Below, one piece after another: positions 29,813 to 48,609 of a DNA stretch of 64,000 nt. Under the pieces are notes generated by a model, which made no database searches, was not told the origin of the DNA, and worked only from the letters and a program-made list of their open reading frames with translations. Position 1 is the stretch's first letter; every line of letters begins with the position of its first letter. The stretch is from Desulfomonile tiedjei (GTDB lineage: Bacteria > Desulfobacterota > Desulfomonilia > Desulfomonilales > Desulfomonilaceae). Location: the NCBI GenBank assembly GCA_016218715.1, contig JACRDG010000104.1, forward strand, positions 1 through 64,000, read 5' to 3'. The translations under genes were made by a program, and so were the position numbers.

Positions 29813-30070
29813 ATGGCGAATCATCCCTCAGCCTTAAAAAGGATGCGACAGAGCGAAAAAAAACGACTGCGTAACATGTCGTACCGCTCGCAGGTCCGGT
29901 CTGCAGTGAAAAAATTCCTTATCGCGGCCGACGAAAAGACCCCGGAAGTCGCCGAGCTTTTCCGCCTGGCCGAATCCCTGCTTCAACGAGGCGTTTCCAA
30001 AGGCATATTCCACCGAAATACCGCCTGCCGAAAAGTGTCGAGACTCGCCCAGAAGCTGCCCCCGGTCTAA
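29813..30070 (+). CDS. rpsT: 30S ribosomal protein S20
   Basis: 85 residues, Lys/Arg-rich and helical, starting ANHPSALKRMRQSEKKRLRN as in S20 and ending GIFHRNTACRKVSRLAQKL, the conserved C-terminal helix. It binds 16S rRNA early in small-subunit assembly. TAAGGAGCT lies six bases before the ATG. A strong hairpin follows 21 bases after the stop. Confidence 0.97.
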   Translation: MANHPSALKRMRQSEKKRLRNMSYRSQVRSAVKKFLIAADEKTPEVAELFRLAESLLQRGVSKGIFHRNTACRKVSRLAQKLPPV

Positions 30071-30134: not shown

Positions 30135-32144
30135 TTATCGTGTCTCACTCTGCTGCGCGGCAACCGGCGCGGCAGGCGCTGACCCTCTCGCGTCGTACGG
30201 GTCCCCCATGAGAATCCAACCGGTCCATGAAGGGGGTTTGCCGGCAAAGGAAGAGTCCAATCCTGCGGGCATCTCTCGCGGGTACGCTCCCAGCGCCTCG
30301 TAGGAGGCGCCTTTGGTCGCTATCCGTTTCAGGACCGAAAGCAGAAACGGGTCGTCAGCTCCCCAGTTCTGGTCCGAATAGTTCACCAGGCACAACTTCA
30401 CGCCGGAGTATGCCAATGCCAGGTTCAGCAGAAGCGGTCCCTCACCGCCGGGAATTTCGACTCCACTAAGATCCAGCCAGGACACGGGCAAAACCACGAG
30501 CCTCGCTCCCGTCGGAAGAGCAAACAGCCGGCTGACGGATAGCTTTCTCCGCGCTTTGTTGTCCGGAGCGAAAAAGAGAGTCGGTTGGCGTTCCGGGCTC
30601 ACCGTATCCGTCATGGCAAGCGGCACCGCGAAAATAGCCACGTGATCTCCCCGGCCTTTGTACTGGACGAGCTTGTCCAAGGTTGCCGTCGACCCGATCC
30701 ATACGTCGAACTTCTTGAAGATCTTCTGAATGCTGACGACGATATCCGACGGTTTCGGGTAGACGGGATTCGCGAGGATGAGTCGCTCGATTTTGTCCTC
30801 TTCAGACTGGGGCGCTTTCTGGCCGGCTTGATCGTGAGACGAGGCTTTTCGAGCATCCCCCTCGGGGATCCACGGGATCGCTTCGAACAGCAGCAGGTCG
30901 CCAGTGAATTCGGGCGCCGGAGGCTTCCCGTGGGATGACCGCAGGAACCGCACCACATCTGCCGATGGGGTGAGCGAAATCACGCGATCGCGACCGAAAG
31001 GGCGGTCTTCAGTATCCAACATCACAGAGAAAGGAAGGTACCAGAGTGCTCCATCCGGTATGACCAGTATCCTTGTTTTGTCGGCCGGAAGGGGCGGGAG
31101 CTTTCCCAAGAGGGTTCGGTAGACGCGGCGAGCCGGTTCTCGCCAGGCATGTCCCATGAACGTCGCTGCCTCGCCGAGGGCGAACTCTCGGAGCTTGTCC
31201 TGAAGGTGCAGGATCCCTCGCTCGATGTCGCCTCTCGTGGTAGGCACCTGGTAATACGTCGCCTTCTCGTTGGTGATCACGCCGACGATCATGCGATCGG
31301 CCAGCAGATTGAAATCCAGAATCAGCTCGTCCTTCCCCAACAACTCTCGTTGGACTTCGGCGAGCGTCAACGGCAAACCCTTGCGGAGGAACGCGTACCT
31401 CGGAGAACTCTTCTGCAGAGACTTGCGTACGTCCGAGAGCTTGGTCGCCAGCGCCTCTTCCTCCTGTCGCGTGGAAGGAGACCCGATCTCTCCTTTGACT
31501 TCGAGCATCTTGCGTAAGACGTCCGCCTCCTCCTTGAGGAGGGCGGCGGACACGTCAAGGAACTTGATCGGGCCGGCTTTCTTCAGTACGTAGTTTCTCC
31601 AGCACAGCCGCCGTTTTTCCATGAGGTGGAAGATCCGGGCAGAGACGTCCTCCTGCGGCTCCAAGTGAGCGGGTCCCATGATTTTGGTTGCGAGTTCGTC
31701 AAATATCTGGAAGCGCTCCTTGATTTCGTTGAGGAGCGGGTCGCCCGGCGGAACGTCCCCCAACGCGGACTCAAGATTGTCCAACACGCTTCGGTACTTG
31801 AGAATCGCGTTCTCAATCTCACCGGCGAGATATAATCTGCGGGCTTCCTTGATCTGGCGGTCGAGTTTCTGCAGAATCGTCGCGGGGTCGGGCTCTGGAG
31901 ACGGCTGGGGTTCGACGCGTTCCTTGAAGAGCCAGCGGTACTTGGACTTCGCATCGTCCTGGCCACGAGCGTCGGTCTTCTCCGAGTCAGACCCAGCGGT
32001 TCCCGCGTCCTGCCCGCGGCCGCCCGGTTCCTGGCCGAATGCATCATTCCGACCTGTCTGAAACACCACCACCAGCGCGACCGTCGCGATACTCAGGAAG
32101 GTCAGGAATGCTTTAGCGAAGCGACGGCCCGGCAAGCACTTCAT
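30135..32144 (-). CDS. Exported or anchored CHAT-like protein without the catalytic His-Cys pair
   Basis: 669 residues. A hydrophobic segment (FLTFLSIATVALVVVFQTG) after a basic start predicts a signal anchor and periplasmic location. A helical middle (residues about 85-260, KEARRLYLAGEIENAILKYRSVLDNL) resembles TPR repeats. From about 290 the order of segments follows a CHAT domain: LILDFNLLADRMIVGVI, RILVIPDGALWYLPFSVML, DVWIGSTATLDKL, and a C-terminal SWTGWILMGDP. At the places where active CHAT proteases have HG and SACxTG, this protein reads IFAVPLAM and VLPVSWLDLSG, so the dyad seems absent. ATG 32144 overlaps the stop of the HD-domain gene (ATGA), implying translational coupling. Confidence 0.7.
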   Translation of the reverse strand: MKCLPGRRFAKAFLTFLSIATVALVVVFQTGRNDAFGQEPGGRGQDAGTAGSDSEKTDARGQDDAKSKYRWLFKERVEPQPSPEPDPATILQKLDRQIKEARRLYLAGEIENAILKYRSVLDNLESALGDVPPGDPLLNEIKERFQIFDELATKIMGPAHLEPQEDVSARIFHLMEKRRLCWRNYVLKKAGPIKFLDVSAALLKEEADVLRKMLEVKGEIGSPSTRQEEEALATKLSDVRKSLQKSSPRYAFLRKGLPLTLAEVQRELLGKDELILDFNLLADRMIVGVITNEKATYYQVPTTRGDIERGILHLQDKLREFALGEAATFMGHAWREPARRVYRTLLGKLPPLPADKTRILVIPDGALWYLPFSVMLDTEDRPFGRDRVISLTPSADVVRFLRSSHGKPPAPEFTGDLLLFEAIPWIPEGDARKASSHDQAGQKAPQSEEDKIERLILANPVYPKPSDIVVSIQKIFKKFDVWIGSTATLDKLVQYKGRGDHVAIFAVPLAMTDTVSPERQPTLFFAPDNKARRKLSVSRLFALPTGARLVVLPVSWLDLSGVEIPGGEGPLLLNLALAYSGVKLCLVNYSDQNWGADDPFLLSVLKRIATKGASYEALGAYPREMPAGLDSSFAGKPPSWTGWILMGDPYDARGSAPAAPVAAQQSETR

Positions 32145-32740
32145 TTCTCGCTCTTCTCCTGTCGATCGGCCGATACCCACCACTCGTCGTCCTTTTCCTT
32201 GAACCACCAGGCTGAGAAGTCCGTATTCAGGATGCTCCGAGCCAGGCGCTTGCCATCATCAGTACGGAGCCGCTTCACTGCAGAGGAAATCCAGTCCCGC
32301 GCGTACCGGTTGCCGAGGTCACCGAGTTCCTTGAGTTGGAGAATCATCTCGATCTGATCCGCGTCGTTGGCGGCTTCGGCTTCCGGTGTGGCGCGCGCGT
32401 TGAATTCTTCGGTCAACTCTCTGATCTCGTCGCCGAAGTGTAGTGCTCCGGTCATGTCCCGTACCGCTGCGTTCTCGTCAGCTTTCACGTACCGCTTGTT
32501 CACATAATTGAGGTCTCCGGTTCGTGCTTCGACCAGGTCATGAAACAGGCACATAAGAACGACCCTGTTCCCGTCAAGGGTTTTCGACACGCGTGCCAGC
32601 ACGTACCCGATTACCGCGCAGCGGAAGCTATGCTCGGCAACGGTCTCCTGACCGGTTCCCAGAAACTGGAACCCGGACCGGGGCGTGCGCTTGAGCATTC
32701 CGACCTCGAAAAGAAAATCTGCAAGTGCATTAAATTCCAC
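32141..32740 (-). CDS. HD-domain protein (YfbR/HDDC2-like 5'-deoxynucleotidase)
   Basis: 199 residues with the HD metal motif: EHSFRCAVIGYVLA (first His), VVLMCLFHDLVEARTGDLNYVNKRYV (His-Asp) and an Asp near NDADQIEMILQLKEL. The pattern matches the YfbR/HDDC2 group, which dephosphorylates deoxyribonucleoside 5'-monophosphates. GTG 32740 with GAGG seven bases upstream is preferred over TTG 32746. Its stop overlaps the start of the CHAT-like gene, and it diverges from the methyltransferase gene. Confidence 0.85.
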   Translation of the reverse strand: MEFNALADFLFEVGMLKRTPRSGFQFLGTGQETVAEHSFRCAVIGYVLARVSKTLDGNRVVLMCLFHDLVEARTGDLNYVNKRYVKADENAAVRDMTGALHFGDEIRELTEEFNARATPEAEAANDADQIEMILQLKELGDLGNRYARDWISSAVKRLRTDDGKRLARSILNTDFSAWWFKEKDDEWWVSADRQEKSEK

Positions 32741-32945
32741 GTCCAAACCTCACTGGGCTTTCCCGAGTCGCAGGCTTCACTACCACGATTCTCCTTTTCT
32801 ATCAAGGGGCTTCCACGGATTGCGCCCGGTTTCGCAGAGAAGCGACCGACTGGCCGAGCTTCAGTCCGAGAAAGAAAAAGATTCCTTCCCGCACACCCTT
32901 TTCGCATAATGCTCGATGTCGTATCCTGGAGCCTGAGGTGTCGGC

Positions 32946-33791
32946 GTGACACGAGTCGAGTGGGTTACAATCAGTTGCGATGTTTGCGGGTCCGCTGACC
33001 ATCGCCTCCTGTTCGTCAAAGAGGGCTTCCGCCATGTGCGGTGCGAAACGTGCGGCATGGTGTTCGTGAACCCGCGGCTCGCAGGCCACCTCGATTTCCA
33101 GGCGTCCTCCGGGACCGGCTCCATGGGCGACGATTCCCTCTCGCCGCCACAGCGGCAGCGGCTCAGGAAGGAACTCTCCTCCATGGAACCGTTCCGCCGC
33201 CTGAACCGCATCATGGAAGTCGGGGCCGGTCGAGGATGGTTCTTGCTGGAAGCCTCTCGCGCGGGCTGGGAGACGTGGGCGGTGGAGATCAACTCCAGCG
33301 CGCTCGATTACTTGCGAAAAATCCCCGTGAATAACCTCGTGGTTGAGCCGGCCGAGGAGTTTCATGCGCCCGCAGCATCGGTTGACGTGGTGAGAATGTG
33401 GGACGTCATCGAACACCTGGAATCGCCTCGGCGGGCTGTCGCCCACATCCATCGCGTGTTGCGGCCCGGCGGTCTGCTTCGCCTTGCTACCACCAATTTT
33501 GCCTCTCTGTCCCGCAAGGTGAACGGCCCAGAGTGGGTGTACCTGAACGGTTCCGACCACATCTTCCTCTTCGAACCCGACACGATACGAAAGCTCCTCG
33601 CGGACGCAGGATTCTGGGACGTGAAGATTCGCACGAGGTCGTTCAACCTGCGGAGAAAACTCTACCACCCGGAACATGAACCGGCTTTGCGCTGGAGCCT
33701 GTGGCGCCCTTTCAGAAAACTGATCGACGAGACCATACGATTGACCTCGTTCGGACACCAGATGATCGTCACCGCGGTGAAGCCCGAATAG
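32946..33791 (+). CDS. SAM-dependent methyltransferase with N-terminal zinc ribbon
   Basis: 281 residues. Two CxxC pairs at the start (CDVCGSADHRLLFVKEG and VRCETCGMVFVNPR) form a zinc ribbon, followed by a class I methyltransferase: RIMEVGAGRGWFLLEASRAGW (motif I), EINSSAL, VDVVRMWDVIEHLESP and LRPGGLLRLATTNF. The layout matches methyltransferases that modify sugars or quinone-like small molecules; the substrate is unknown. The start is GTG 32946 with GAGGTG upstream. Confidence 0.85.
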   Translation: MTRVEWVTISCDVCGSADHRLLFVKEGFRHVRCETCGMVFVNPRLAGHLDFQASSGTGSMGDDSLSPPQRQRLRKELSSMEPFRRLNRIMEVGAGRGWFLLEASRAGWETWAVEINSSALDYLRKIPVNNLVVEPAEEFHAPAASVDVVRMWDVIEHLESPRRAVAHIHRVLRPGGLLRLATTNFASLSRKVNGPEWVYLNGSDHIFLFEPDTIRKLLADAGFWDVKIRTRSFNLRRKLYHPEHEPALRWSLWRPFRKLIDETIRLTSFGHQMIVTAVKPE

Positions 33792-48523: not shown

Positions 48524-48609
48524 TGGCGGAGGGAGAGGGATTCGAACCCCCGGACCTTTCGGTCAACGGTTTTCAAGACCGCCGCCTTAAACCACTCGGC
48601 CATCCCTCC
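48524..48609 (-). tRNA. tRNA-Ser (anticodon UGA)
   Basis: 86-base tRNA with an encoded CCA. Acceptor stem GGAGGGA pairs with TCCCTCC; D arm GCCGAGTGGTTTAAGGC; anticodon loop CTTGAAA with anticodon TGA at 48575-48573; long type II variable arm (TGACCGAAAGGTCC); T arm with GGTTCGAATCC. These are the features of a UCA-reading serine tRNA. It lies 33 bases after the S66 peptidase gene on the same strand. Confidence 0.97.

Follow-up and report, generated by a model that had tools for sequence, protein, structure and literature searches.

The stretch of DNA analysed here (the window) comprises 64,000 nucleotides from Desulfomonile tiedjei, the genome of which is 5.55 Mb in size. Two of its genes form the sole minus-strand pair between a convergent plus-strand gene at 29813–30070, which we take from its sequence to be rpsT (ribosomal protein S20) and which is kept in all 16 family loci that reach that far, and a divergent plus-strand gene at 32946–33791, presumably, again from its sequence, a class I methyltransferase. 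The upstream member of the pair (32141–32740, with an alternative TTG start at 32746) encodes a nucleotidase-type phosphohydrolase of the HD_3 family, similar to HDDC2 and AF1432. The downstream member (30135–32144) encodes a 669-residue TPR-CHAT protein that is predicted to be exported and, as set out below, appears to be a pseudoprotease; we refer to it as the pseudo-CHAT. The last letters of the HD frame are ...GAGAAATGA, the ATGA of which contains the CHAT start codon at 32144, so the stop and start codons overlap by 4 bases, as the original prediction had stated. Scanning the region for promoters and terminators gave no more matches than shuffled sequences give, and Rfam matched nothing in the window but a tRNA gene at 48527–48609 on the minus strand.

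The assignment of the downstream product as CHAT-like is borne out by a match to Pfam family PF12770 that scores 48.2 bits (cut-off 24) and covers residues 336–648 and profile positions 2–289 of 289; NCBIfam has no model for the protein. An AF2 model built from 15 aligned sequences has moderate overall confidence (mean pLDDT 72.5, pTM 0.77, with residues 1–67 and 72–87 below 50) and displays paired helices from residue 90 onward, in keeping with the TPR-like helices that had been proposed. Structure comparison gives Csx29 as the best match (7y9x; Z 25.3, 416 residues, 3.5 Å), with Z scores of 20.6–25.3 across Csx29/TPR-CHAT chains and 15.5–21.6 for separases. The transmembrane anti-sigma factor DdvA (PDB: 8rot, 8rw5) is matched with Z 16.3–16.4 over 349–360 residues. 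Further matches with Z 16–17 are to axonemal central-pair chains that, from their length and the matched range, we take to be CFAP46-like; if so identified, they would represent another structural use of the CHAT-type fold. The model suggests that the window protein has a CHAT/separase fold in the TPR-CHAT architecture of Csx29 and separase. Searches of PDB sequences with the pseudo-CHAT profile, the window protein and an intact-CHAT profile returned no convincing relative.

The residues that define a CHAT protease active site are, however, missing. Intact CHAT proteins of the same genome carry ATHG or GTHG at the catalytic His and LTAC, LIAC or LSSC at the catalytic Cys. Opposite ATHG the window protein has A-V-P-L, with Pro508 in place of the His (A-V-P, residues 506–508; 30621–30629, minus strand), and opposite L-S/T-A/S-C it has L-P-V-S, with Ser555 in place of the Cys (V-S-W, residues 554–556; 30477–30485, minus strand). 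The same residues were brought together by MAFFT alignment with the genome's own intact CHATs and by hhalign comparison of two profiles (probability 99.4). Among the 16 family orthologues that cover the site (G009 and G013 are fragments missing both positions), position 508 is invariably Pro, position 555 is Ser in 10, Ala in 4 and Cys in 2, and position 556, directly beside it, is Trp in all 16. This tally was not drawn from the A3 profile search, which often ends before the dyad in pseudo-CHATs and is shifted by 1–2 residues in G003 and G006. The His-Gly and Ser-Ala-Cys sites are thus absent, as originally noticed, and the window protein does not have the His and Cys that an active CHAT protease requires at the aligned positions.

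In a tree of CHAT domains the pseudo-CHAT orthologues form one clade with support of 100/100, on a stem of 3.15 changes per column. Because this stem is so long, the nearest paralogue cannot be named from the tree. The Cys persists in just two orthologues, those of G010 and G001, which diverge early in the clade (midpoint root, one fork with support of 95/76); the His was therefore probably lost before the Cys. Related proteins of ~424 residues from another family of the phylum (L139 in G091 and L144 in G054) keep the His but carry Asp or Pro in place of the Cys; judged by these residues, they would be another pseudo-CHAT lineage.

Orthologues of the pseudo-CHAT gene are present in 18 of 18 Desulfomonilaceae genomes and in 0 of 24 genomes of the sister family. 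Among 395 genomes of the phylum they occur only in the window's genome and 4 other sampled members of the family, G307 having been matched via an ordinary CHAT protein only. An alignment- and pattern-based contig scan found 15 loci, on contigs that, judging by their titles, lengths and matches, belong to genomes of the same family, whereas a contig search with the single window protein found no matches. The frame of the CHAT region is open in every genome with a complete gene. In three close pairs among G014, G016 and G011, dN/dS is 0.060, 0.062 and 0.058 for the pseudo-CHAT gene, the HD gene giving 0.036, 0.054 and 0.053; in more distant pairs dS is saturated. A ratio of ~0.06 indicates that the pseudo-CHAT gene is maintained under strong purifying selection and is not dying. 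Stepwise loss of the dyad could also be read as the decay of a paralogue without function, but the low dN/dS, the open frame wherever the gene is complete and its presence in all 18 genomes refute this, and we give the idea virtually no credence. The pseudoprotease reading, by comparison, is backed by both alignments, by the 16 orthologues, by the fold prediction and by the dN/dS values.

The original prediction had given the protein a membrane anchor. A hydrophobic N-terminal segment is indeed present, both in the window protein (residues 1–37; 32034–32144, minus strand; located by hydropathy) and in all orthologues with a readable N-terminus, but it is more likely to be a cleavable signal peptide than an anchor: many orthologues have a small-x-small, cleavage-like site after it (AQA, SLA, CQA or AFG, read by eye), and in the window protein cleavage might occur after AFG and before QE. 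Positive charge precedes the segment in the window protein and several orthologues, and the intact CHAT paralogues also have a hydrophobic N-terminal stretch. We infer from these features that the pseudo-CHAT is exported by the Sec route and is periplasmic. Beyond this segment, in a tail predicted to be disordered, lies the motif KYRWLFK (residues 68–74; 31923–31943, minus strand), in which alignment shows Y69, W71, L72 and F73 to be invariant. YxWLF was absent from the other CHAT paralogues scanned and is restricted to the pseudo-CHAT clade, making it a candidate short binding motif.

Many other polar and aromatic residues away from the former dyad are invariant in the family orthologues, among them H332, R339/R340, W556 and N588-Y589. 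H332 falls within an invariant F-M-G-H-A-W stretch (residues 329–334; 31143–31160, minus strand). Such conservation would be expected if the CHAT fold had acquired a new catalytic or ligand-binding site near H332 (MGHAW), R339/R340, W556 or N588-Y589. The same residues may equally be structural, and we know of no precedent for a new active site in the CHAT fold, so we regard this as unlikely.

We turn now to the HD neighbour. Its product matches HD_3 with 115 bits and has the metal residues H39, H69-D70 and D128/D130 (identified by eye, including in the alignment with AF1432). In both sequence (E 8e-19 to AF1432, 3e-15 to HDDC2) and metal residues it is like the HDDC2/AF1432 HD_3 phosphohydrolases. 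The earlier description of a YfbR-like HD nucleotidase is right as to the HD phosphohydrolase but not as to the subfamily, because YfbR is matched only in part and the score for YfbR proper (29 bits) falls well below the NCBIfam equivalog cut-off of 122.

The overlap had also been taken as a sign that the HD and CHAT genes are a coupled pair, and they could be imagined as one functional system in which a nucleotide signal acts on a caspase-like effector, with translation coupled through the ATGA. In all 18 family genomes the HD gene does lie directly upstream of the CHAT gene and codirectional with it, including where murJ or the methyltransferase is displaced, so the two are not separate genes in most relatives. 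Yet an in-frame start that permits overlap exists in just 7 of the 18 (G000, which is the window's genome, G004, G005, G006, G009, G010 and G012); in the other 11 the first possible CHAT start lies 25–172 bases past the HD stop, and the overlap is lineage-specific. The neighbours of the pseudo-CHAT gene are murJ, rpsT, the HD gene, the methyltransferase and argBDF, of which rpsT, the methyltransferase and argBDF also hold their places in most of the family genomes. Because these surrounding housekeeping genes are also syntenic, the adjacency of HD and CHAT is mostly background synteny. The HD link is slightly more persistent than that of the methyltransferase, which is the next gene in most genomes, is 5 kb off in G010 and is not found within 1.5 kb in G014. 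Outside the family, five HD homologues (in G042, G049, G051, G056 and G058) have unrelated neighbours, and their genomes yielded no pseudo-CHAT orthologue. Furthermore, the products are predicted to be in different compartments, the CHAT protein periplasmic and the HD protein cytoplasmic, as the placement on opposite sides of the membrane in the original prediction implied, and neither protein matches a PADLOC defence model at E 0.01. What survives of the coupled pair is adjacency, and a joint HD-CHAT system seems very unlikely to us. The HD gene looks like an ordinary cytoplasmic neighbour that shares a transcript at most.

A second core CHAT gene, new here, was found beside lgt. It encodes a TPR-CHAT protein of ~1700 residues that is likewise predicted to be exported, and is present in 16 of 18 family genomes; it was not found in G001 and G017 (82% and 85% complete). 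In the window's genome it lies at G000:C62:38749-43833 (L084:2750-7834, minus strand), with orthologues at L149–L160. Wherever that flank is covered (13 of 13 loci), it directly follows genes that, from their sequences, we take to be lgt and a TrmJ-like gene. His and Cys are kept in 10 of 16 second CHATs. In one genus (g5) the His is replaced by Tyr in 6 of 6 genomes where the gene was found and readable, and in G011, G014 and G016 of that genus the Cys is additionally replaced by Ile. Elsewhere the dyad is rarely altered: 32 of 34 non-core CHAT matches, counted with those having one dyad column uncovered left out, keep both His and Cys (all but G007 C46 and G004 C114), so dyad loss is concentrated in the two core genes. 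The number of CHAT genes itself varies, with strong expansion in G004 (19 matches) and G007 (16) compared with 2 in several relatives.

Only the two core CHAT genes are retained in nearly the whole family (18/18 and 16/18), both products are predicted to be exported, and together the two genes are the sole CHAT matches in G005, G010, G011, G014 and G016. This would suit a pseudoprotease-protease pair in which the pseudo-CHAT regulates an active, lgt-linked TPR-CHAT protease. Vertical inheritance alone would give equal co-occurrence, however, and the genes are on different contigs or far apart; the second gene is also missing from G001 and G017 in our search. Such regulation is further weakened because the second CHAT is dead too in one genus: with no His in its six genomes, G011, G014 and G016, in which the two core genes are the only CHAT matches (G011 is 97% complete, the others 82–83%), are left with no CHAT protease to regulate. 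We regard regulation of this kind as possible but doubtful. Tentatively, and with no greater conviction, the family may instead keep two ancient exported TPR-CHATs that are turning successively from proteases into pure binders, as parts of a periplasmic scaffold or sensing complex without proteolysis. The murJ/rpsT-side protein would then be dead family-wide and the lgt-side protein dead in one genus, with His lost before Cys both times.

For the pseudo-CHAT gene itself, which is one of the core genes of Desulfomonilaceae, we think it probable that the product is a TPR-CHAT pseudoprotease that is exported to the periplasm and works by binding in the envelope. Its helical N-terminal part and predicted CHAT fold are retained and the dyad is lost, probably His first and Cys later. 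With the fold kept and the dyad gone, the protein most likely binds a peptide or protein of the envelope and may have a scaffolding, adaptor or regulatory role there. The second exported CHAT beside lgt is a possible target of such regulation, an idea drawn from the retention of both genes and the compartment predicted for both products.

Proteolysis in immunity and cell death is the role usually assigned to CHAT domains. A CHAT protein that occurs throughout a clade under strong selection, has no dyad, is predicted to be periplasmic and lies beside housekeeping genes in free-living anaerobes would point to a second, non-proteolytic use of the fold. Additionally, the loss of His and then Cys in the second CHAT of genus g5 offers a natural series for studying what the CHAT fold does after cutting stops. 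Searches of the open-licence literature turned up no report that links 'CHAT domain' with 'pseudoprotease', and no Desulfomonile paper describing a CHAT pseudoprotease.

Several known systems bear comparison. DdvA has the TPR-CHAT fold in common with the pseudo-CHAT; its CHAT part is reportedly periplasmic with an incomplete His-Cys site, and its membrane helix is preceded by a sigma-binding domain in the cytoplasm. The pseudo-CHAT has just ~10 residues before the hydrophobic segment and so does not have this anti-sigma layout, and no sigma factor gene was recognised among its nearest neighbours. Csx29 of the type III-E CRISPR Craspase resembles the pseudo-CHAT in having TPR-like helices followed by CHAT. 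It is a protease that requires H615 and C658 (PMC10028731) and acts with Cas7-11. The pseudo-CHAT differs in its missing dyad, its predicted export and the lack of any CRISPR gene seen adjoining it; the Craspase partners Cas7-11 and Csx30 are not among its neighbours. A connection between a CHAT protein and cell envelope machinery is provided by HetF, which interacts with FtsI (PMC8406250). HetF, as described there, is cyanobacterial with an N-terminal CHAT domain (aa 1-555), and our analysis gave no evidence of a division link for the pseudo-CHAT. A further parallel is found in the pseudo-orthocaspases, caspase-fold proteins that have lost the His-Cys dyad and are conserved across whole clades (PMC6426788). 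They carry Tyr/Ser at the dyad of a p20 domain, as compared with Pro and Ser, Ala or Cys in the CHAT domain of the pseudo-CHAT, and their replacement of His by Tyr is the same change that the second CHAT shows in genus g5.
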